The translations under genes and the position numbers were made by a program. Shown here one piece after another: positions 13,908 to 27,694 of a DNA stretch of 49,818 bases (its first letter is position 1; each line of letters starts with the position of its first letter). The notes beneath the pieces are model-generated. The model was not told the origin of the DNA, did not search any database, and was given only the letters and a program-made list of their open reading frames with translations. The DNA is taken from positions 1 through 49,818 of the forward strand of contig JAGXSZ010000024.1 in NCBI GenBank assembly GCA_018333515.1, written 5' to 3'. Source of the DNA: Actinomycetota bacterium. Lineage in GTDB: Bacteria; Actinomycetota; Aquicultoria; Aquicultorales; Aquicultoraceae.

Positions 13908-15833
13908 TCAGGGCCGTTGCCGTTTTCCGGTCTCCTCGACCTCATAACCGCCCATCGCGGCAACCTGCTCTTTAAACTCGTCCGTTCCGATGATTTTCAG
14001 CATTAATTGAATTTTTTCGTCCTCCAGGTACTCGCTGGGTATTACGAGGTCGTAGCGTTCTTTTGTTACCGGGATGAAATCGAGCGACAGGGCGTTGGCG
14101 GCGGCTTTGATACCGAGGCCCGCGTCGGCCGCGCCCGAGGCGACGGCAATCGCCACGTTCATATGCGTGTACTCTTCGTTAAGGTAACCCGCGATAGCGC
14201 TTGCCTCGATGCCGGCTTTGCCGAGTTCGTAATCGAGCAGGATACGGGTGCCGGAACCGGCCTGGCGGTTGACGAAGACGATGTCGCCGCGCGCAAGGTC
14301 GCGAACGCTTTGAATGCCTTTCGGGTTGCCGCCGGCGACCATGAAACCCTGCCACCGGTGGACGAGCGTGACCACTTCAACCGGAATCGAGGGCAGGTAG
14401 CGTTGGATATAGGAATGATTGTATTCGCCGGTTTCGGTATCGAGCAGGTGTGAGCCGGCGAAATGCGCGGTCTGCTTTCTGAGCGCGATAAGGCCCCCCA
14501 GGCTTCCGACATTGCTCGACGAGACCTGCACTCTACCGCCGGTCTCTTCTTTCAGCATGCTTCCTATTAAATCGATGGTCATATCGTGGGAGCCGATAAC
14601 GACCAGCCTTCCGTTGATCATCTCGCGCGAAGCGAGGAGTTCCGCCTCGGCCGCTTCTCCCTCGGATAAGCCGCCGGTCTCCTGTGGTATGCGGATAATC
14701 CCGTCGGCGCGCACGATCGATGAGAGAACCCCGGCGCCTCCGGCCAGCGGTGTGGCCGTGAGCGCGCCCCCGACGTCGCCGATTATCACCCGCACATGCT
14801 CTTCGAGGCCGAGTTTTGACGGTATCTTCCGCCCGACAGTGACGCCCACTTTCGCCAGCTCAGGCGGTTGCAGACCCTGGAGCATATAGAGTAGGGGTCG
14901 CACGAATTCCCTGAAAGCCACCGCCGCCGAGACCGGATATCCGGGAATGCCGATAACCGGCTTGCCTTCGACTTCGGCGAGTAACGCCGGTTTTCCAGGC
15001 ATCACGGTAACGCCGTGGACAAGGAGACGACCCATTTTCTCCAGGAGCGGGGGAGTGAAATCCTCCGAACCCGCCGACGAGCCCGCTATCATCATCACTA
15101 TATCGTATTCTTTTGAGAGCGCGTCTCTCAGGGTTGTTTCGAGCTTTCTCTCGATGTCGGATACGGGCGCGTGAATCTCCGCGGTCGCGCCGCACTCCTC
15201 GGCCATCGAAGCGAGCATCTGCCCGTCGACCTCGAGTATCGCGCCTTTGGGCAACGGGTCCGGCGCTTCTTCCGGAACGACTATTTCAGTCCCTGTGGGG
15301 ATGATTAAGACCCGGGGTCCGCGGATTACTTCCATGGAAAGGACACCGGCGGCGAGCAAAGCCGCCTGGTCGTAGGCGCGAACGCGATGGCGCGCTGAGA
15401 GAATTATCTCTCCCTTGACCATATCTTCGCCCGCCTTGCGGACGTTTCGCCACGGATACGCCGACTCCCGGATTTCCCATCCGTCTTTCGTAGCCTCGAC
15501 CTTTTCGATCATTATGACGGCGTCGGTCCCGTCGGGCATGGGGTCGCCTGTGTCGATTAAGACGGTATGGCCGCCTTTAGGGAGGGTGAGCGGCTTTTCA
15601 GGAAGCGCGCCAAAGGTCTCGGTAGCTTTGACCGCGATACCGTCCATAGCGGCCGCGTGATATGCCGGAACGGATTGCTTCGCGGTCACGGGTCGGGCCG
15701 ACACGCGCCCCAATGCTTTTCGCACCGCAATCGTTTCGGACCCAAGGAGGATATCCTTAAAATTACCGAATAGAATCGCTCTCGCTTCAGCCAAGGGCTT
15801 CAGGTTGCGATATACTCTCTTCGCTCGCTCCAT
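13908..15833 (-). CDS. MoeA-type molybdopterin molybdotransferase fused to a periplasmic-binding-protein-like domain
   Basis: The 641-residue fusion has a MoeA/gephyrin unit in residues 1-400 (AYHAAAMDGIAV, DTGDPMPDGTDAVIM, VLIIPTGTEIV, GKPVIGIPGYPVSAAV). Residues about 415-640 form a substrate-binding-like domain (LVVIGSHDMTIDLIGSML, VNRQAGSGTRILLDYELGKA, AVASGAADAGLGIKAAA) of the PF12727 type. It would insert molybdate or tungstate into molybdopterin; the extra domain may sense or hold the oxyanion. ATG 15833 follows AAGGA; an upstream TTG at 15872 lacks one. It is downstream of, and probably co-transcribed with, a second moeA. Confidence 0.92.
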   Translation of the reverse strand: MERAKRVYRNLKPLAEARAILFGNFKDILLGSETIAVRKALGRVSARPVTAKQSVPAYHAAAMDGIAVKATETFGALPEKPLTLPKGGHTVLIDTGDPMPDGTDAVIMIEKVEATKDGWEIRESAYPWRNVRKAGEDMVKGEIILSARHRVRAYDQAALLAAGVLSMEVIRGPRVLIIPTGTEIVVPEEAPDPLPKGAILEVDGQMLASMAEECGATAEIHAPVSDIERKLETTLRDALSKEYDIVMMIAGSSAGSEDFTPPLLEKMGRLLVHGVTVMPGKPALLAEVEGKPVIGIPGYPVSAAVAFREFVRPLLYMLQGLQPPELAKVGVTVGRKIPSKLGLEEHVRVIIGDVGGALTATPLAGGAGVLSSIVRADGIIRIPQETGGLSEGEAAEAELLASREMINGRLVVIGSHDMTIDLIGSMLKEETGGRVQVSSSNVGSLGGLIALRKQTAHFAGSHLLDTETGEYNHSYIQRYLPSIPVEVVTLVHRWQGFMVAGGNPKGIQSVRDLARGDIVFVNRQAGSGTRILLDYELGKAGIEASAIAGYLNEEYTHMNVAIAVASGAADAGLGIKAAANALSLDFIPVTKERYDLVIPSEYLEDEKIQLMLKIIGTDEFKEQVAAMGGYEVEETGKRQRP

Positions 15834-15897
15834 GGTAGTTCCTTTGTAATTATTTAGCACGCTCTTCCGCAATCAACCGACTCGAGTTTGTTCCTTT

Positions 15898-17130
15898 TTA
15901 AAATAAGTATACGTCGATGACCTCCCCGGCCGCCACGCCTTCGGCGTGAATCGGTATGACAAAGAAACCATCCGCTTTGACGAGGGTCGACATCATGCCG
16001 CTTTTTCCGAAGACGGGGCGCGCGACCAGGCCGTCCCGCTCTCGTTCGAGTTTTACCCTGGTGTATTCTTCCCGTCCATGGGGCGAATGAACCGATGTGG
16101 CGAGGACGGCGCTTATGCGTTGGCCGGTGGGCTCTTTCTTGAGTTCTTCGCCTTCGAGATATTTCAGAAACGGCAGCAGAAAGACTTGCGCCACGATGAC
16201 TGCCGATACCGGATGGCCGGGCAGCCCGAAGACGGGCTTGCCTTGCACCTCCGCCAGAAGCGTCGGTTTGCCCGGGCTTATGGCAATGCCGTGAGCATAT
16301 ATTTCCACCTCGGGAAAGCTATTTACTACTTCGACGATATGGTCGCGCTCGCCCACCGAGCTGCCGCCGGAGACGACGACCACATCCGCCGCCTCAAGCG
16401 CATTCGCTAGCGCGGATTTCAAAAGGTACGGTTCATCCCGGACAATACCGCAAGCTATCGGCACCGCGCCGACGCTCTCGACGAGTGCGCGAAGCGCGTA
16501 GCTATTGATATCCCGTATCTGCCCCGGTGAAGGCGTCTCCGTTACCGGGATGATTTCGTCGCCGGTCGAGATTATGGCGACCCTTGGTTTTTTAAAGACG
16601 GTGATTTCGGTAATGCCTAGACCGGCCGGCATGCCGACATCCTGGGGCCTAAGGCGCGTCCCCGCCGACAGTACGGTCTCACCTAAAGCGACATCGCCGG
16701 CGCGCTCCAGGATGTTGTCGGCCCTGGTCACAGGTCTTGTTACCTCGATTTCTCCATGACCTAAGGGGTTCGTATATTCCACCATGACGACCGCGTCGGC
16801 CCCCTCGGGCAAGAATCCTCCTGTGGGAATTTCCGCTGCCTGACCGGGGGCGACCGGCATATCGGGAAGCGACCCCATGGCGACGCTCCCGGCCACTTTC
16901 AGCAGGGCCGGCACCGCATCGGAGGCCCCGAAGGTGTCCTCCGCCCGGACGGCATATCCGTCCATCGTCGAGCGCGCGCGCGGCGGGAGTTCTTCCCGCG
17001 AGATTATATCCCGGCCAAGAACCCGTCCCAGCGCGTGCTCTAAATCTATTTGTTCCAACGTTAGCCTGGCAAACCCGGCCAAAGAATCGAAAATCTGTTG
17101 CGCGCTCGCGACTTTAAAAAATTCCGGCAA
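15898..17130 (-). CDS. moeA: Molybdopterin molybdotransferase MoeA
   Basis: This is a stand-alone MoeA of 410 residues with all domains: RARSTMDGYAVRAEDTFGA, IPTGGFLPEGADAVVMVEY, VAIISTGDEI, VVSGGSSVGERDHI and GKPVFGLPGHPVSA, then the C-terminal beta domain. It catalyses metal insertion into adenylated molybdopterin. TTG 17130 is supported by AGGAG eight bases upstream and gives the usual N-terminal 'F..V..A...' start. Sixty-four bases separate it from the fused paralogue, and the two may favour different metals (Mo versus W). Confidence 0.94.
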   Translation of the reverse strand: MPEFFKVASAQQIFDSLAGFARLTLEQIDLEHALGRVLGRDIISREELPPRARSTMDGYAVRAEDTFGASDAVPALLKVAGSVAMGSLPDMPVAPGQAAEIPTGGFLPEGADAVVMVEYTNPLGHGEIEVTRPVTRADNILERAGDVALGETVLSAGTRLRPQDVGMPAGLGITEITVFKKPRVAIISTGDEIIPVTETPSPGQIRDINSYALRALVESVGAVPIACGIVRDEPYLLKSALANALEAADVVVVSGGSSVGERDHIVEVVNSFPEVEIYAHGIAISPGKPTLLAEVQGKPVFGLPGHPVSAVIVAQVFLLPFLKYLEGEELKKEPTGQRISAVLATSVHSPHGREEYTRVKLERERDGLVARPVFGKSGMMSTLVKADGFFVIPIHAEGVAAGEVIDVYLF

Positions 17131-17429: not shown

Positions 17430-17678
17430 ATGCCGAAAAAGACATCTGAGCGCGTACAGTTATATTTAGAACCAGAGCAATACCAGTTTCTAGTAAGAGA
17501 AGCAAAAAAAGAAGGCAGCCTTGCGGCGGTTGTAAGAAAACTGATCGATGAGCGATTGAAAGGGAAGAGGCTTGAAGAAGACCCCATAAGGAGGCTTTCT
17601 GAATTAGCTGCCGAGGGTGGTCCGGAGGATCTCTCTGAGCAGCATGATCGATATATCTATGGTAAGGCGACGGAATGA
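17430..17678 (+). CDS. vapB: Ribbon-helix-helix antitoxin (VapB-like)
   Basis: This 82-residue antitoxin has an N-terminal strand ERVQLYLEPEQYQFLVREA and helix pair (GSLAAVVRKLIDERL) of the CopG/Arc fold. An acidic, probably unstructured C-terminus follows that would wrap the toxin (EDLSEQHDRYIYG). ATG 17430 is chosen because AAGGTGGTGG lies just upstream; a GTG at 17418 is inside that site. Its stop overlaps the toxin start by four bases (ATGA), and the operator immediately upstream indicates autorepression. Confidence 0.85.
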   Translation: MPKKTSERVQLYLEPEQYQFLVREAKKEGSLAAVVRKLIDERLKGKRLEEDPIRRLSELAAEGGPEDLSEQHDRYIYGKATE

Positions 17679-18082
17679 AGTCTATTTTTCTCGATACTTC
17701 CGGTCTTGTCGCTTTGCTTAGCTCAAAAGATAAGAATCATGCCGCCGCTGAGCGTTTTTGGGATTGGCTGTTAACGCAGCCCATGGCTGTCTATCTGACC
17801 GATTATATTTTTGATGAGACATATACGGCGCTTCGAAGCTGTTTGGGGCATAAAGTGGCTAGCGGTTTCGGCGAGTTGGTGTTTGAGAGTAGCGCGTTAA
17901 ACTTGATATTTATTGACGAGGGTTTGCTCAATGCGGCCTGGGAAGTTGCTCGTAAGTATTCGGATAAAACCTACAGTTTTACCGATTGTACCAGCTTTGT
18001 GGTAATGGAGAGGCTTGCGCTCGATGCGGTCTTTACTTTCGACCGTCATTTTGCTCAGTACGGCCTTACGGCAAAGCCTTAA
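17675..18082 (+). CDS. vapC: PIN-domain ribonuclease toxin (VapC-like)
   Basis: This 135-residue PIN-domain protein has the four expected acidic active-site residues: D7 (IFLDTSGLVALL), E48 (YIFDETYTAL), D104 (SFTDCTSFVVM) and D123 (AVFTFDRHF). Such toxins cleave RNA, commonly tRNA or the ribosomal sarcin-ricin loop, when freed from the antitoxin. The target here is unknown. It is translationally coupled to the antitoxin. The conserved acidic residues suggest it is active. Confidence 0.9.
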   Translation: MKSIFLDTSGLVALLSSKDKNHAAAERFWDWLLTQPMAVYLTDYIFDETYTALRSCLGHKVASGFGELVFESSALNLIFIDEGLLNAAWEVARKYSDKTYSFTDCTSFVVMERLALDAVFTFDRHFAQYGLTAKP

Positions 18083-19416: not shown

Positions 19417-21990
19417 TTATATCACCGTCGCCACCGAGCCGATGCCGCGCTCCTTGGTCACCTCGATGCGGGCGGGGAAGGCTTCCTTTAAATCGTCGAG
19501 ATGGGTGATGACGATTATTTTCTTGAAATTCTCCTGGATCGCGGTTATCGCTTCGATAAGTCTCTCCTTGCCCTCCTCGTCCTGGGTTCCGAAGCCCTCG
19601 TCGATGACGAGCGTCTCCAGACGAGCGCCCGCGCGGCGCGCTAAGAATTCGGAGAGGGCGATGCGCACGGCGAAGTTTATCCTGAACGCCTCGCCGCCTG
19701 AGAAGAGTTCGTACTTGCGCTCGCCGAGTTCGCCGTCGGTGATGATGAGGTCGAGCGTCTCGACCACCCCGCCGGTCTTCTTATCCTTCTGCGTGACGAA
19801 ACGCAAGCTCATTCGCCCGCCGGTCAAGCGATGGAGGAGCGAATTGGCCTCGTCCTCTATTTCGGGGATGGTGTTTTCGATGATGAGCGCCTGGATGCCT
19901 TTCTTACTGAAGATAAAGGCGAGCGTGTCGTAGATGCCGGTCTCGCGAGCCGCTTCCTTTCGCTCAACGGTAAGGTCGCTCTTTTGTCGCGCGAGTTTTG
20001 CGCAATTATCTATCTTAACCTGGGCGGTGGTTTTATTGGCCGTAGCGGTGGTTTCGACCGCTTTTTTCTCCGCGAGCGCCGCTTCGGTTATCAGGATTCT
20101 CGTCGAGATATCCGCCAGCTCCGCCAGCTCCGCCGCGAGCGCCGACGCGTTCTTCTCATCCTCACCGATGGCGCGGAGTTCGATATCCTTCCGCGCCGTC
20201 AGCGTTTTGATGGTCGCGCCGGTCGATTCTAAAGTCTGCTTGGCGTTCTCCAGGTTTGCTTTGAGCGTCTCGTTTTCGAGCAGGTCTTTCAAATTTTTCT
20301 TGACGCTTTGATGGAACTCGGGCGTGTAGGCGAGTTTGTCGATAGCGTCCAAGGCGCGTTGAAGTCGGTCGTGCTCGTCGCCGGCGAAGGCGTCTTGCGC
20401 GAGTTTGGGTTGGATATCGGCGAGTTGTTTACCGATGCCCGCTAGACTCTCGGCGGCGCCCTCAAATGCGCTAATCTCACCCTCAAGCTTACCCTTACTT
20501 GCTTGGAACTCATTCTCGCCTTTAACGTTGTCGCTGAGGCGCCTACCCTCGGCCTCGACTTCACGCATTTCACGCTCAGCACGCTCCTTACCTGCGCGGT
20601 CACGCTCGATATTAGCTTTAAGTTCGGCGATTTCTTTAGCCGCGCCGGCCTCGAGTGAGCGTCTATCCTTGTCGTCGAGCGGTTTCTTGCAGAGGGGACA
20701 GGAGTCGTCATCGGTCATGAGCGCGCGGCGGTTTTCGGCCTCGTCCAGCTTGGCCTTGTTCGCGGTTATGGCGGCGGCAAGCTTGGCCGTGGTCTCACGA
20801 AGTTCGCCGTATTTCTCTCGAAGCTCATCTATTTTCTTCTTGAGCGGCTCCATCTCGGCGAGCGAGCGCGTGACCTGAGCGAGCGCCGCCTCGACCGCGG
20901 GTTTCTTCGCCAGCTCTCTTTCGAGTTCGGTCTTGCGCCTATCGAGGTGCGCGATTTCCGACTCGAGGGCGCTTCTCTCCTTAGCGATTTTGAGGCGCGC
21001 CTCGTTGACGCTCTTCTCAAGTGCGGCGTGCTCCCGCGCGACGCCCGTTAGTTCTTCATCCTTCTGACGGAGTTCGATAAGTTTGGCGTAGCCCGCATCG
21101 ATAGCGGCTTCCTTATCCACAATCGCCCTTGCGCGCGAGGCGCTCGCCGAGAGCGACGCCAGCTCTTTATCGAGTTCCGCGATATTATCTTTGGCCGACT
21201 GTGTTCGCTCGGATATCTCAACGAGCCGGGCATTCTTTAGGTCGAAGAGTGTCTTTTTCTCGCGGAAGACGGCGAGCGCGCCCTCGACCTCCTCGATAGC
21301 GGCTTGCGCTTTGCCGAGTTCCTCAGTCGCCGCGCGCAGCGCAACCTTATAGCCAGGGAGGAACTCCAGCTCCTGCTGTATCGATGCGATTTTCGTGTCG
21401 ATGATTCTCAGGCGCTCGTTTTGCTCGCGCCGCTTCTCTTTGGCGAGCGCCTCGAGTTCGTCGTAGAGGGAGAGCCCGAGTATCTCGGAGAGTATCTCTT
21501 TGCGCTCGTTCGCGCTCTTGGCCATGAAAATATCGGCCTTGCCCTGCATGATAAAGGCCGAGTTTATAAAGGTCTCGTAATCCATCCGCAGGGTCTTGTC
21601 GATAGCGGCTTGGGTCACCGCAATCGTCTCGCCGGTAAGCGCCCGGGGGACGCCGTCGCCCTGGATTTGAAATTCGAGTTTGGAGACGCCGGTTTTTCCT
21701 TTACGGCTGCGCGAACGGATGACGCGATAGCGCTGTCCCTCGAGTTCGAACGAGAATTCGACCTGCATGTGCGCTTCTTTGTGGTGGATGAGGTCGTCGG
21801 TGCCCGTGCCGCGCTTATCCACCCCGCGAGCCTGCCCCCAGAGCGCCCAGGTGACGGCATCGAGCAGCGAACTCTTGCCGTGGCCGTTTGGCCCGCTGAG
21901 CACGGCCGTATGGATGGACGTGAAGCTCAACGGCTCGGCCATCTCTTTGTAGCTCATGAAGTTGGTCAGTCTAAGTTCGACAGGTATCAG
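19417..21990 (-). CDS. sbcC: SbcC/Rad50-type ATPase for DNA-end processing
   Basis: This is an SMC-like ATPase of 857 residues. It has Walker A GPNGHGKSS near residue 35, long coiled coils on both sides of a zinc hook CPLCKKPL, the ABC signature LFSGGEAFRINFAVRIAL, and Walker B LVIDEGFGTQDEEG. With SbcD it opens and trims DNA ends and hairpins. The start is best set at a CTG (21988-21990) that overlaps the SbcD stop as CTGA, giving L/M-IPVELRLTNFMSY, the usual SbcC beginning, with GGGGG upstream. No ATG, GTG or TTG fits, and the upstream open frame to 22425 is antisense-like filler. Confidence 0.93.
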   Translation of the reverse strand: MIPVELRLTNFMSYKEMAEPLSFTSIHTAVLSGPNGHGKSSLLDAVTWALWGQARGVDKRGTGTDDLIHHKEAHMQVEFSFELEGQRYRVIRSRSRKGKTGVSKLEFQIQGDGVPRALTGETIAVTQAAIDKTLRMDYETFINSAFIMQGKADIFMAKSANERKEILSEILGLSLYDELEALAKEKRREQNERLRIIDTKIASIQQELEFLPGYKVALRAATEELGKAQAAIEEVEGALAVFREKKTLFDLKNARLVEISERTQSAKDNIAELDKELASLSASASRARAIVDKEAAIDAGYAKLIELRQKDEELTGVAREHAALEKSVNEARLKIAKERSALESEIAHLDRRKTELERELAKKPAVEAALAQVTRSLAEMEPLKKKIDELREKYGELRETTAKLAAAITANKAKLDEAENRRALMTDDDSCPLCKKPLDDKDRRSLEAGAAKEIAELKANIERDRAGKERAEREMREVEAEGRRLSDNVKGENEFQASKGKLEGEISAFEGAAESLAGIGKQLADIQPKLAQDAFAGDEHDRLQRALDAIDKLAYTPEFHQSVKKNLKDLLENETLKANLENAKQTLESTGATIKTLTARKDIELRAIGEDEKNASALAAELAELADISTRILITEAALAEKKAVETTATANKTTAQVKIDNCAKLARQKSDLTVERKEAARETGIYDTLAFIFSKKGIQALIIENTIPEIEDEANSLLHRLTGGRMSLRFVTQKDKKTGGVVETLDLIITDGELGERKYELFSGGEAFRINFAVRIALSEFLARRAGARLETLVIDEGFGTQDEEGKERLIEAITAIQENFKKIIVITHLDDLKEAFPARIEVTKERGIGSVATVI

Positions 21991-23282
21991 TTTACTTGCC
22001 CCCGGTGGTAGAGTTCTTCGACTAATCTCCCGCCATATTCCATCAGCTCGTCGCTTCGCTCGCGCAAATCCTCGCGCGTCCTGATAAACTCCACGAGGGC
22101 GTCGACCGGAGTTTGCGCCTCCGTTAGGTGCGGGTTTCGAGTTCTTACGTCTTCGCCTACGGCCTCGATATTTATATAGGCGATGAAGTAAGCACCGGAA
22201 AGCGCCCCCAGTATCTCGTCTTTTCTTACTTGCTCTCTTAGGTGGGCGGGGACTTTGACCCGCACCCGAACGACCGCCTCGGACAACTCCCGCGCCTCGC
22301 AGGCCGCGCGGACCTCCGCTGTGGGGTCTTCGCTCGCGCAGTCGACGTCGATGGTGACGAAGCGGCGCGCCGGCGTCGTGATGAATTCGTAGGTCGTCGC
22401 GCCGCGCGCCAAATCGACCAGGCAAAAGCCCTTCTCCTCTTTTTCCTCGCCGAAGTCGACGCGGTCGATGCTCCCCGAGTAGACGAGGTGCGGGTAGGCG
22501 CCGCGGCTCAAATCCTGGAACTTGTGGATATGTCCGAGCGCGATGTAGTCGAACTCGGCACGCTGCACGGCGCTGGGTGTAATCGTTAGCTCGTTTCCCG
22601 CGAGGATACTGCGGTTCTCGTTGCCGACCGCGGCGGTCGAGAGGCTGGCGTGCGCGGTGAGTATCGCCGGGATGGCGGGGTCGACCCGGGCCGCCAGGTC
22701 CTCGATGAACGTCTCGACGGTCTGCGTTAAGAGGTCGTTTAAATCGGTAAGCGTCCTGTTCTTATACTCGACGTCTTGCTCCTTTAGGTTCGCGACAAGC
22801 TTGCTGCGCGAGAAGTGCGGCAACGCGGCGACCTGAACCGGACCTTGCTTGGTCTCGATGGTCATGAGTTCGGGCGTGCGCGCGACATAGACGCCGTCGA
22901 TTTCGAGCGCGTCGTATATGGCGAGCGCGTGCGCCTGTTTGTCCAGGTTGGGAAGGTCGTGGTTGCCGACGAGGAGAAGCACCTTTATCTCGGCGCGGGT
23001 CAGCTTGCGCACGGCGCGCGCGAACTCGCGCTGGAGCGTCGGGTTGGGTTTCTGGTTGCGGAAGGCGTCCCCGGCAAAGACGACCAGGGCGACATCCCGC
23101 TCGATGGCGGTTTCGACCAGGAAGTCGAGCGAGCGCAAAAAATCGATTACCCGCTGGTTGAGGCCGCTTTTCGCATCGGCGCGGCCGTAGTTTTCCATCC
23201 CCAGGTGGAGGTCGGCGAAGTGGAGTACCCTAATCGCCTTGCGAGCGGCGCAATCGTTTACAAGTGCAAGATTATTGCTCAT
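21987..23282 (-). CDS. sbcD: SbcD/Mre11-type exonuclease
   Basis: This 431-residue calcineurin-like phosphoesterase has metal-binding motifs in order: HFADLHLG (I), VFAGDAF (II), VGNHDL (III), LTAHASL (IV) and ALGHIHKF (V), followed by a capping domain. It is a dual-metal DNA endo/exonuclease working with SbcC. It follows herA at 60 bases and overlaps sbcC by four bases. The Shine-Dalgarno is weak, consistent with coupling in an operon. Archaeal NurA/HerA/Mre11/Rad50 clusters have the same content. Confidence 0.94.
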   Translation of the reverse strand: MSNNLALVNDCAARKAIRVLHFADLHLGMENYGRADAKSGLNQRVIDFLRSLDFLVETAIERDVALVVFAGDAFRNQKPNPTLQREFARAVRKLTRAEIKVLLLVGNHDLPNLDKQAHALAIYDALEIDGVYVARTPELMTIETKQGPVQVAALPHFSRSKLVANLKEQDVEYKNRTLTDLNDLLTQTVETFIEDLAARVDPAIPAILTAHASLSTAAVGNENRSILAGNELTITPSAVQRAEFDYIALGHIHKFQDLSRGAYPHLVYSGSIDRVDFGEEKEEKGFCLVDLARGATTYEFITTPARRFVTIDVDCASEDPTAEVRAACEARELSEAVVRVRVKVPAHLREQVRKDEILGALSGAYFIAYINIEAVGEDVRTRNPHLTEAQTPVDALVEFIRTREDLRERSDELMEYGGRLVEELYHRGQVN

Positions 23283-23341
23283 ATATTCTCGGTTTTAGTT
23301 CATAGTTCATGGTTATGGTTTGCTATCACTATTGACTGTCC

Positions 23342-24982
23342 TTAATCAAAGACGATTTCGTCATCGCCGAAGACACTCGCTTTCAGGGAATCTATCGATT
23401 TGCGCCGCTCGATTTCGTCAACGATGACGCCGGCTCCGACACGAAGTTCGTTACAGAAGAGACCGTACTCCTTCGCGTCGATGACGACGGGCATCGGCGG
23501 CGCGAAGCCGGTCAGCAAGAACTGGCGCGGCTCCAGGTTGTTTATCAAAACCTTGAGCGTCCCCTGGCCGGGCAAGCCGGTCAAGACTGCGTTGATGTCG
23601 CGCTCGTCACCGAGTTCGCCGATTATCCGCGTGCCGACCTGTGAGAGTATCTCGTCGTCGATGCCGCTCGGGCGCTGGTCTATCAATAGGAGCACCATGT
23701 TGTACTTGCGCATCTCGCGCGCGATGGTGCCGAAAATCGTCTGCCGCGCCACCGCCGGGTCGAGGAATTTGTGCGCCTCCTCGATGGTGACGACGAGCGG
23801 TTTGGGCCCTTCGATGCCCTCGGCGCGGGCGCTGTCGGTCTTGTCCACGTAGAGCCTGTGGAGCCGCCTGGTCAAGATGTTCGCGACCAGGATGTAGGAG
23901 AGCATCGAGTTGTAGCGCCCGAACTGGAAGACTATATGGCGCCCCGCCCTTATCTCGTTCATAATGCGCGCGACGGTGTCGTCGGCGACCTCTTTTCTAA
24001 TAAAGGGGAGGCGTTTCAAGCGGCTCAAGCAGCGGTGGAGCTTGCCGAGCGCCTGGTCGTTTACTTTTAGCTCCTCGACGACGAGGGAGAGTTCGCCCGC
24101 GTCCATCGCGAGGAACTTCGCCAGCCATTTGCTCTCGCCCCACGCGTCGTGGAGGCGGTACATCGTCTCGATACCGGCCTGGGTCAGGCCAAGTTCACCC
24201 GCGGCCAGCTCGAGGTCGGCTATTTCGATGATGCCGTAGGGTATCTGCACGTCGTAGTCGGGGCGGATTTTTCTGTAGAGCGGTGAGTCGGCGTCGACGG
24301 TAAAAATCGCGACCTTGCTCCCGAGGATCTGGCGGAGGCTCGGGTCGTCGGCGCCCGAGCCCTCGCTCGTGGCGCTCCAGCCGTATTCGCCGTGCATGTC
24401 GAAGATGAGGTTTATCGCCATATCGCTCTTGACCAGGTGCCCGAGTATCATCCGCGCCAGCACGCTCTTACCCGAGCCGCTCTTGCCGAAGACGGCGTTG
24501 CTCCGTTTGCAGAAGCGCTCTAAATTCAAGCAGACCGGCACCTCCATGAAGATGGGGGAGCCGATTTCCGGGTTGGTTAGCCCCGGTTCCCCGAAGATGA
24601 GCGAGATATCGTCGGCGGTCGCCTCGCAGACCGGCGAGAAGTGCGGCGGCACCGTTGTCGAGGGGCGCGGCCGGTCGCCGGCTTCGGGCTCCTGCGACGT
24701 GATGAGCATCGGTTGGAGTGAGAGCTTATAGAATGTATTGACGCCGGCGTGGACCATCTTCGAGAAGTCGTCGCGCGGCGGATTTAACAGGATATCTTCG
24801 TTTGTCGCCTCCAGGGAGACGTCTTTGAGCAGGCAGAAGAACTTGTTGAGCGCGCCGTCGACGACGATGAGGCGCCCCACGGAGACGCCCTCCACATTGA
24901 TGTCCTCGTCGAGCTTGGCTTCGAGGCCGCCGAGGAGTGAGCCGGCGATGATGCTGCCGATGTGCTTGGTCTTACCTGCCAT
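23342..24982 (-). CDS. herA: HerA-type hexameric DNA translocase
   Basis: This FtsK/HerA-superfamily ATPase of 546 residues has a beta-rich N-terminus (about 1-130), Walker A FGKSGSGKSVLAR near residue 170, Walker B-type PLVVTIEEAHKFLDP and the arginine-containing LLLIDQRPSGIDDEILSQVG. HerA pumps DNA through a hexameric ring and, with NurA, resects double-strand breaks in archaea. Start ATG 24982 overlaps the preceding HAS-barrel-like gene by 11 bases. It sits with NurA and Mre11/Rad50 in one operon. Confidence 0.92.
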   Translation of the reverse strand: MAGKTKHIGSIIAGSLLGGLEAKLDEDINVEGVSVGRLIVVDGALNKFFCLLKDVSLEATNEDILLNPPRDDFSKMVHAGVNTFYKLSLQPMLITSQEPEAGDRPRPSTTVPPHFSPVCEATADDISLIFGEPGLTNPEIGSPIFMEVPVCLNLERFCKRSNAVFGKSGSGKSVLARMILGHLVKSDMAINLIFDMHGEYGWSATSEGSGADDPSLRQILGSKVAIFTVDADSPLYRKIRPDYDVQIPYGIIEIADLELAAGELGLTQAGIETMYRLHDAWGESKWLAKFLAMDAGELSLVVEELKVNDQALGKLHRCLSRLKRLPFIRKEVADDTVARIMNEIRAGRHIVFQFGRYNSMLSYILVANILTRRLHRLYVDKTDSARAEGIEGPKPLVVTIEEAHKFLDPAVARQTIFGTIAREMRKYNMVLLLIDQRPSGIDDEILSQVGTRIIGELGDERDINAVLTGLPGQGTLKVLINNLEPRQFLLTGFAPPMPVVIDAKEYGLFCNELRVGAGVIVDEIERRKSIDSLKASVFGDDEIVFD

Positions 24983-25553
24983 CGCTTATCCTCCTGATGA
25001 TGCTCCGCGCTTTTTCGTACTCGTCCTTTAAGAGCTGGGCTATCTCCTGGCCGGCGCGGGTCAAAAACGCGCTGTCGTTTCCGCGCTCGGCGTAGGCGAG
25101 GCGAATCGAGGCGGCGGCCAGCTCCTCGACGGGGAGCCCCGGCAGCGCGTTGACGCTTCGGATGAACTCCAAATCCTCGGTGAGGTCGATGACCTCGCGG
25201 CTGTTGCACGGGTAGACGAAGCTGTGGATGCGCGGCGGGAAGGGCGGCAGGTACGCGCGGATGTAGCCGGCGTCGTCAAAGCCGATGACCGCCGCTTCGA
25301 ACTCCACCTTCAAAAACTCCGCAATCTGCGGCTGGCGCCTCAAAAGCTCGTCGCGCTCGATGCCGAAGGCCATGGCCCGCCGGTTCGGGTCGATGCTCGT
25401 CTCGTAGACGTTGAAGACCAGCCCGTAGATGGTCATCCCTTGGCTACGGGTTTTTATGAAGCTGCCGAAGTGCGGCAGTACCGACAGGTCGTCGTTTTGC
25501 GCGAGAATGCGCGTCGTCGACACCTGGATTATCTCTCCGATTCGTCCGCTCAT
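24972..25553 (-). CDS. HAS-barrel-like protein between NurA and HerA
   Basis: This 193-residue protein begins with a beta-barrel-like segment (GRIGEIIQVSTTRILAQ, FGSFIKTRSQGMTIYGLVFN), similar to the HAS barrel that normally forms the HerA N-terminus. It continues with a helical half (LTEDLEFIRSVNALPGLPVE, AQLLKDEYEKARSIIRRI). It lies immediately after nurA (stop and start adjacent) and overlaps herA. It could be an accessory or adaptor subunit of the HerA-NurA complex. The fold assignment is from pattern only. Confidence 0.65.
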   Translation of the reverse strand: MSGRIGEIIQVSTTRILAQNDDLSVLPHFGSFIKTRSQGMTIYGLVFNVYETSIDPNRRAMAFGIERDELLRRQPQIAEFLKVEFEAAVIGFDDAGYIRAYLPPFPPRIHSFVYPCNSREVIDLTEDLEFIRSVNALPGLPVEELAAASIRLAYAERGNDSAFLTRAGQEIAQLLKDEYEKARSIIRRISDGR

Positions 25554-26759
25554 CTAAATGAAGCCTCCCCGCTTACGAAGGACTTTGCGCGATTCAATAA
25601 CCGGCGCGCCCGCTTTTATCATCGCCCTCGATACCAGCTGGTCGAAGATATGCTTATCCGCCGCTTTTACCACCGCCTGCTCGTGGGCCTCGGCGATGGC
25701 GACGGGGTAACCCGCGCCTTTTTCCGCCTGGTCGAGGCAGACGGCGTGGAGCAGCTCGACCATCGTTTTGTCGCGTCCGACCCAAAGCGGCAGCTCAACG
25801 CGCGCGATTTCGGCGCCCGCGTTGAGGTAGAAGAAGAGGACGGTCTCGCCGCCGTAAGCTTTGAGAATCTGCGACCCGCTCTCGAAGAGAGCCGAGCGCT
25901 CGCCCGGCTTCAAGAGCCGTTTAAACAAGGTAGCGTCCGTGACTCCGTTTATCTTAGCACACGGCGGCGGCCCTTCGAAACCGGCCCCCGCGTGCGGGCA
26001 TTTGTCGCAGTCTACCGGCTCCGCCGCGCAGAGGCTCACCCGAATCGCGTTTACCACATCGGAACTACCCGGCGAGCTTATATAGCCGGCGAGCGGGATG
26101 CCGTGTTCTTTCGCATCACCGACGAGCCCCATGAACGAGGCGAACGACTCTTTCTTAAGGTCGCCCTCTTTGAGCCGGTTGAGACGGTCTGGATTGGTCT
26201 CCAGGTTCCAGAGGATGAGCGTGCCGTCGACGAGCGCGACCGCCGGCTTTTCGGCGCACCCCGCTATCATCTCGGACAGCGACTCGACCTCCATCTTCTG
26301 GCGTAGCGCCCCCAGGACACCGCCGGAGACCTCGCGTTCCTCACCGCCGAACGTGCGCATGACATCGCGTTCGTCGAAGAAGAGGGTGGGGTCGCTACCG
26401 AAGGCGTAGCCGTGAAAATCGCCGTAGCCGATTGAGACGCGCCCGATGTTTATCAAGAGTGAGTGGTGCGGCGCGTGACGGTCGGGGCATATTTGCGAGC
26501 CGTCGGTCGAAAGGACGGTGTATGATTCCGGCGCGGCGACCGGGCTAAAAACCGAAAACGGGCGCTCGCTCGTGGGCATGGCTACCAGCCACGAAGTCGT
26601 CGCGTTGTCGATTTTGCGCGCGAACGATTCGATATCTTGTGAGATGCGCGATATCTGCTCGTCGGCCGCGCCGAGCGCCGCCGCGATACCGCGCGCCCGC
26701 TCCGTCTGGTAGGAGCCGAGCGCCGCAATCTGACCGTACACTTTGTTGAGGTCAAGCAC
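25554..26759 (-). CDS. nurA: NurA-family 5'-3' nuclease
   Basis: From GTG 26759 the product has 401 residues. NurA motifs are visible: TVLSTDGSQICPDRH (first catalytic Asp, with the DGS), PAVALVDGTLILWNLE (second Asp) and IPLAGYISSPGSSDVVNAI, followed by the C-terminal nuclease strands. NurA dimers sit on the HerA hexamer and degrade DNA ends. An ATG at 26825 would add 22 basic residues without homologue-like character; GTG is preferred, with AAGGA upstream. This is the first gene of the five-gene end-processing operon. Confidence 0.87.
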   Translation of the reverse strand: MLDLNKVYGQIAALGSYQTERARGIAAALGAADEQISRISQDIESFARKIDNATTSWLVAMPTSERPFSVFSPVAAPESYTVLSTDGSQICPDRHAPHHSLLINIGRVSIGYGDFHGYAFGSDPTLFFDERDVMRTFGGEEREVSGGVLGALRQKMEVESLSEMIAGCAEKPAVALVDGTLILWNLETNPDRLNRLKEGDLKKESFASFMGLVGDAKEHGIPLAGYISSPGSSDVVNAIRVSLCAAEPVDCDKCPHAGAGFEGPPPCAKINGVTDATLFKRLLKPGERSALFESGSQILKAYGGETVLFFYLNAGAEIARVELPLWVGRDKTMVELLHAVCLDQAEKGAGYPVAIAEAHEQAVVKAADKHIFDQLVSRAMIKAGAPVIESRKVLRKRGGFI

Positions 26760-26952
26760 GCGCGACCATCCTTTATTTATCCAGAGAGGTAAAACCCGCC
26801 GCGAACGATTTATCAGACGGCACATAGGGCCTTACCCAAACAGCCGTTCGTATTATCGTAGCAGAAGGACAGGGAGAACGGTAGGGGAGATCTCGCTTAA
26901 GTTCGCGCGGCCGTCGTCGGGCGAAGTTAGGACGCACTGGAAACAACGTCCC

Positions 26953-27369
26953 CTAATTGAGCTGCTTGTGGCGCCCGGCCAGCTCCGCCAGCGTCTTCGC
27001 CCCCAAGACTCCATCGATAGCGCTTCGGACATCCCGCCAGACCTCGTGCGTCGCGCACGCTTTCGAGCGCGGGCAGAGCTTCGGCGCGTCGACACAATCG
27101 ACCGGCGCGAGCGGGCCCTCCAATGCCAGTATTATTTCGAGCAGAGTTATCTTCGACGCATCTTTTGCCAGCATATAGCCACCGTTAATTCCGCGGATAC
27201 TCCGGACAAAGCCCCCGTTTTTGAGTGCCGGGATAATCTGTTCCAAATATTTTACCGAAACTCCCTGGCGCCGCGCTAAGTCTTTTAAGCGGACCGGGCC
27301 GTTCTCGGCGTTGAGTGCCAAATCGAGCATCGCCCTGGCGCCGTAGCGGCTTCGTGTGGAAAGTTTCAT
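26953..27369 (-). CDS. Rrf2-family Fe-S regulator (IscR-like)
   Basis: This 138-residue winged-helix regulator starts MKLSTRSRYGARAMLDLAL with recognition region VSVKYLEQIIPALKNGGFV. It carries C92, C99 and C105 plus H108, nearly the same spacing as the IscR cluster ligands (C92, C98, C104, H107), so binding a [2Fe-2S] cluster is likely. Targets could be Fe-S biogenesis or redox genes, or the DNA-repair operon downstream. ATG 27369 follows AAGGGAG; the longer frame to 27420 is not needed. Confidence 0.9.
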   Translation of the reverse strand: MKLSTRSRYGARAMLDLALNAENGPVRLKDLARRQGVSVKYLEQIIPALKNGGFVRSIRGINGGYMLAKDASKITLLEIILALEGPLAPVDCVDAPKLCPRSKACATHEVWRDVRSAIDGVLGAKTLAELAGRHKQLN

Positions 27370-27694
27370 ACGCGCTCCCTTCACGAAAGGTCGATAGTCC
27401 AAAAAATTAGGGTTTTTCAACCGTGATTTCTTGACGAGACTTTCGTTGATTGATACATGTGTTACAATAAATCCTACTTGATATACGGGATTTCTTACTT
27501 AAGTCTAAGCCCTGTTGGCTTGTAAAGTCAACCAAGATCGAGTCATCTTAAGCTTATTTGACATAAAGGTCCCTAGCCGAAAATTTTCGAACAATTTCGA
27601 ATTGTCGTGCAGGATTTGTAGATCGTTCGGCGAACTTTCTTTATTTAGTCCTAGTTGAATAGGTAGTTTATTTGCGATAAGAACAGAAGTAAAA
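27370..27694. other. Divergent intergenic region and long leader of the alpha-glucan cluster
   Basis: This region separates the Rrf2 gene from the forward glucan cluster. It is AT-rich with TTGACG at about 27432 and TACAATA about 40 bases on, but no clean sigma-70 pair is placed. Short self-complementary stretches (AAATTTTCG, CGAATT) occur near 27580-27605. No gene is seen. Confidence 0.35.

Follow-up and report, generated by a model that had tools for sequence, protein, structure and literature searches.

A five-gene operon in an Actinomycetota bacterium encodes the NurA nuclease, a stand-alone HAS-barrel protein, the HerA translocase, Mre11/SbcD and Rad50/SbcC. We propose that it is probably a constitutive housekeeping operon for a three-component DNA-end translocase-nuclease that works with Mre11-Rad50, beside AddAB or perhaps instead of it. 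The core is the NurA-HAS-HerA trio, and the joining of mre11-rad50 to this core is characteristic of the lineage studied here and a few others. The operon resembles a housekeeping repair set rather than a defence island or a group of genes lately acquired from archaea.

Gene order and catalytic motifs of the operon

The genes run on the minus strand from 26759 to 19417 of the window, by which we mean the whole 49,818-nucleotide stretch of DNA that was analysed. They are tightly packed: the nurA stop directly abuts the start of the HAS gene, the HAS gene and herA overlap by 11 nt, 59 nt separate herA from mre11, and the mre11 stop and rad50 start overlap in CTGA. Because the five-gene order is found again in relatives, the arrangement is not a matter of chance. 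NurA, SbcD and HAS-type HerA are each present in a single copy in the genome. An Rfam scan of the window gave no match, and a promoter and terminator scan gave signal at chance level.

Table 1. Genes of the operon, in order of transcription, with window coordinates and basis of assignment
Gene	Coordinates	Strand	Basis
nurA	25554..26759	-	Pfam NurA 1.4e-26, catalytic residues, AlphaFold/Foldseek
stand-alone HAS-barrel gene, 193 aa	24972..25553	-	PF09378 across homologues, AlphaFold/Foldseek
herA	23342..24982	-	DUF87 2.2e-28, HAS barrel in relatives, alignment, tree
mre11/sbcD	21987..23282	-	TIGR00619 2.1e-40, motifs, single copy
rad50/sbcC	19417..21990	-	AAA_23 3.5e-23, sbcc 2.3e-74, zinc hook 7.6e-4

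The original prediction of a complete NurA, HerA, Mre11 and Rad50 set with an extra HAS-barrel-like protein is borne out at the level of individual residues and domains. The NurA domain (PF09376) scores 93.9 bits against a cut-off of 21, and D87, E158, D179, Y352 and H360 (numbered on the translation of window positions 25557-26762) are invariant in an alignment of 23 sequences; we take these to be the equivalents of the acidic metal-binding and Y/H residues of Sso NurA. The AlphaFold model of NurA (pLDDT 91) has Sso NurA (2ygk) as its top Foldseek match, with an E-value of 9.6e-11; a search of the PDB by sequence returned no usable match for NurA or the HAS protein. HerA scores 100.3 bits for DUF87 (cut-off 23.2), and its Walker A (GKSGSGKS) and Walker B (EEAH) motifs are intact in the alignment. 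The catalytic motifs of NurA and HerA, which were to be checked by close alignment, are thus both present.

Mre11 exceeds the TIGR00619 cut-off and retains the DLHLG, GD, GNHD and GHIH motifs; no further SbcD was detected in the genome. Rad50 contains Walker A, a CPLC zinc hook, an SGGE signature and Walker B. Its AAA_23 and SbcC_Walker_B matches lie above their cut-offs, and the zinc hook profile reaches 19.7 bits against a cut-off of 24.3, with CPLC visible in the sequence. The mechanical call places the rad50 start at 22425, which is incorrect; a comparison of 12 loci shows that the relatives share a start at 21990. At this position the window and a congener (L036) have an apparent CTG start (21988-21990), and the relatives have ATG, TTG or GTG.

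The genes flanking the operon are common to close relatives only. An Rrf2-family regulator (26953-27420) lies upstream on the same strand and, among the loci compared, occurs near the operon only in two loci of the same genus (L036 and L037). A PIN-domain gene (17675-18082) is also close to the operon. A tandem pair of MoeA-type genes occupies 13908-17130; judged by sequence inspection, the C-terminal half of one of them (ORF 13908-15872) seems substrate-binding-like.

The HAS-barrel protein and its partners

The product of the HAS gene lacks an ATPase domain and has a helical C-terminal part. The window protein gives no Pfam match at 0.001, reaching E 0.002 for PF09378 (18.6 bits; Pfam cut-off 25.2), and 27 of its 34 homologues match this profile, the best at 2.3e-8. 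Its AlphaFold model (pLDDT 91.5) matches HerA chains in Foldseek with E-values down to 4.5e-7 and a probability of 1.00; defence HerA and TdpA chains are also among the structures it resembles. Because hhalign of the HAS-protein profile against the HerA profile detected no similarity, the assignment is based on Pfam matches across the family together with the predicted fold. HerA itself retains an N-terminal HAS barrel (PF09378 in 7/7 relatives, best 2.8e-7; window HerA only E 0.1), and therefore one barrel is supplied in cis and one in trans.

The HAS protein follows one type of NurA. Of the 198 genomes sampled in the phylum, 15 encode it, and the same 15 give the strongest NurA matches. It accompanies the NurA type of the window in 15/15 genomes and is present in 0/183 of the others. 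We also read 11 genomes of other phyla that were picked because no HAS gene was seen beside their HAS-type herA. In all 11 the protein is encoded elsewhere, so the partnership is independent of operon linkage. The separated HAS gene lies beside nurA in four of the seven places read.

This NurA type carries a distinctive four-cysteine motif (C245, C252, C255 and C268 in the window). The pattern C-x(about 6)-C-x(2-3)-C-x(n)-C is present in 38 of 43 NurA matches of the window's type, two of the five exceptions being fragments of one broken gene, and is absent from all eight NurAs of other types. The conserved cysteines suggest that these proteins may bind a metal or an Fe-S cluster.

Conservation, linkage to mre11 and HerA ancestry

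The order nurA-HAS-herA-mre11 is found in 10/10 complete genomes of the family. An arrangement that had been put forward as unusual is therefore standard in this family; we found no paper describing the family's gene order. The gene rad50 comes next in six family genomes (the bacterium's own, G020, G035, G072, G105 and G191), the contig ends before its position in three (G159, G048 and G083), and in G126 (L042) there is no rad50 within 3.3 kb after mre11. Candidatus Aquicultor secundus, the closest named genome, carries all five genes in the order seen in the window, and its HerA is 83% identical. We would assign the bacterium to the Aquicultor lineage within the Actinomycetota.

Outside the lineage, linkage to mre11 is uncommon. 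Elsewhere in the phylum, both genomes of family f15 have the full five-gene order; so does L057, a relative ranked as Actinomycetota by NCBI. Three f11 genomes were compared: in the first, mre11 lies 2.6 kb beyond herA, the second lacks an mre11 in the vicinity, and in the third the contig ends in herA. Among the best 80 HerA relatives, herA is followed by mre11 within 2.5 kb at only 7 of the 70 assessable loci; complete five-gene sets occur at L056, L057 and L063, and at L129 after a spacer. Even herA and the HAS gene lie apart in Cyanobacteriota. Two loci of the same phylum carry a nurA-herA-mre11-rad50 quartet that lacks the HAS gene (L052:2287-7452 and L053:4389-9712), so that two operon types coexist in the phylum.

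This pattern bears on whether the five proteins form one machine. The operon could instead encode NurA-HAS-HerA together with an ordinary SbcCD that acts on hairpins and blocked ends, two independent machines that share a transcript but do not cooperate physically; we regard this as possible but doubtful. The uncommon mre11 linkage outside the lineage and the missing rad50 in G126 count against a joint machine, and the separation of herA from the HAS gene in Cyanobacteriota, the f11 arrangements and the fact that the operon SbcD is the only one detected in the genome fit two machines as well. However, the position of mre11 is kept throughout the family and recurs in the f15 genomes and at L057, L058 and L063, the last of these from a Tectimicrobiota MAG. 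Archaeal Mre11-Rad50 also binds HerA, the three proteins co-precipitating in Sulfolobus (PMC2288612).

The original prediction also raised action against foreign DNA. A defence system in which NurA-HAS-HerA degrades invading DNA in the manner of HerA-DUF4297, SIR2-HerA or TdpAB, with Mre11-Rad50 as a helper, is unlikely. PADLOC gives weak matches for HerA and Rad50, the HAS model resembles defence HerA and TdpA chains as noted above, and an antiviral role for HerA-NurA has been proposed for Thermococcus kodakarensis (PMC12977600). Yet PADLOC matches neither NurA nor the HAS protein and has no substantial hit among the three neighbouring genes that were scanned; HerA falls far under the HerA_antiphage cut-offs, and no defence genes were seen among the neighbours scanned. 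The operon is moreover a single-copy feature of its genome, is present in every complete family genome, and has a HerA whose tree is sorted largely by phylum.

The HerA encoded here belongs to a group of its own. Against the NCBIfam HerA equivalogs (archaeal and anti-phage) it scores at best 76 bits, where the cut-off is 800, and it therefore represents a different HerA subfamily. A tree of 221 columns has a branch with support 100/99 that separates the HAS-type HerAs from those of Sso, Tko, the M. jannaschii plasmid, defence systems and other bacteria. Identity is 53-93% within the clade and 25-33% to those outside (about 27-33% between window HerA and archaeal HerA). The best 80 relatives, a sample from which phylum frequencies cannot be taken, include Chloroflexota, Cyanobacteriota, Melainabacteria, Gemmatimonadota, Latescibacterota, Armatimonadota, Dadabacteria (Thermodesulfobacteriota at NCBI), Tectimicrobiota and others. 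The Methanocaldococcus jannaschii plasmid has a herA-type gene of its own next to nurA (L154:2099-4929).

Recent acquisition from Archaea, which has been argued for Thermus and Deinococcus, is very improbable and we reject it for the window HerA: the gene content is that of hyperthermophilic archaeal clusters (PMC2288612), but HerA sits in a separate bacterial clade, with the branch support and identities given above. "Archaeal-style" thus describes the content of the operon and not its ancestry, given a distinct clade that extends over many phyla. Given the length of the separating branch, the thin sampling beyond the clade and the use of PDB rows joined from pieces of HMMER output, the tree is compatible with more than one root, and the HAS-type clade as a whole may have a deep archaeal origin.

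AddAB, proposed function and comparison with known systems

The operon was predicted to act without or beside RecBCD. In the genome, a gene for AddB (997 aa) lies immediately before one for AddA (1178 aa). Both products score under the NCBIfam equivalog cut-offs, but their sizes, domains and adjacent position are those expected of AddAB, and the genome is therefore not without such an enzyme. "Beside" accordingly holds for this genome. Five family genomes (the bacterium's own, G020, G159, G072 and G035) encode both AddB and AddA at full length. Neither was detected in G048, G083, G126 and G191, drafts that are 96-100% complete and of which three belong to one genus; all four retain nurA-HAS-herA-mre11. 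The failure to detect AddAB in these drafts suggests, short of proof, that they lack it, and "without" would then apply to them. G105 has no AddB and encodes a 1068-aa UvrD-type protein. A search for AddA-like helicases in other phyla, in genomes of unknown completeness, gave mixed results.

Published work provides a framework for how the trio could act. The HAS barrels of the HerA hexamer dock a NurA dimer and feed duplex DNA to it (PMC9960219, PMC12977600), and docking of NurA on HerA HAS barrels is described for D. radiodurans (PMC9960219). From the genes, motifs, predicted folds, co-occurrence and conservation described above, we infer a NurA-HAS-HerA complex that would process DNA ends and share this labour with AddAB. 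Mre11-Rad50 would recognize and open the ends, after which the HerA hexamer would thread duplex DNA toward the NurA dimer for degradation. The HAS protein could occupy the NurA docking site on the HerA collar, as an adaptor or a second collar, and could serve to couple NurA to the motor or to gate the DNA. The outcome may be either resection to a 3' overhang or full degradation; the authors of the T. kodakarensis study could not reconcile duplex degradation by HerA-NurA with resection (PMC12977600). The trio would operate beside AddAB in this genome, and perhaps in its place in relatives that lack AddAB.

More tentatively, NurA-HAS-HerA may be a widespread further bacterial end-processing machine in addition to AddAB/RecBCD and RecJ-RecQ. 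It would be a complex of three different proteins in which a separate HAS collar is obligate and NurA binds metal (Zn or Fe-S), and it would be able to replace AddAB. Bacterial NurA-HerA was described in 2023 as limited to a few bacteria, for example Deinococcus-Thermus (PMC9960219), and a 2026 paper ascribes this distribution to transfer from Archaea (PMC12977600). Against this published view stands a distinct bacterial type with a constant third component in many phyla; a literature search for NurA or HerA in Cyanobacteria or Chloroflexi found nothing relevant. If the trio does process DNA ends, it would lengthen the list of bacterial break-repair machines and give the free-standing HAS barrel a testable role. 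The HAS-type trio is open to testing in laboratory-grown organisms, cyanobacteria such as Picosynechococcus among them.

The operon shares features with several known systems and is distinct from each. The nurA/herA/mre11/rad50 cluster of Sulfolobus and other hyperthermophilic archaea has the same four enzyme families clustered, the NurA fold and the HerA motifs; the window differs from it in the extra HAS gene, the distant clade of its HerA and the four-cysteine motif of its NurA. Deinococcus and Thermus nurA-herA (HepA) likewise represent bacterial NurA-HerA, and in Oceanithermus sbcD and sbcC lie downstream of nurA-herA (hepA) (PMC5448004). The window has a stand-alone HAS gene, whereas the excerpted description of the Deinococcus, Thermus and Oceanithermus genes mentions none, and D. 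radiodurans HerA gives no sequence match to the window-type HerA profile at 0.001. The HAS-less bacterial quartet of a megaplasmid of Pontibacillus, a member of the Bacillota (L156), and of the two loci in the phylum of the window (L052 and L053) has the same four functions in the same order, but it has no HAS-family match, its HerA is 25-29% identical to that of the window, and its NurA is without the cysteine motif. AddAB and RecBCD resemble the trio in the role proposed for it at DNA ends and differ from it in their unrelated motor and nuclease, which in this genome are encoded at a separate locus.
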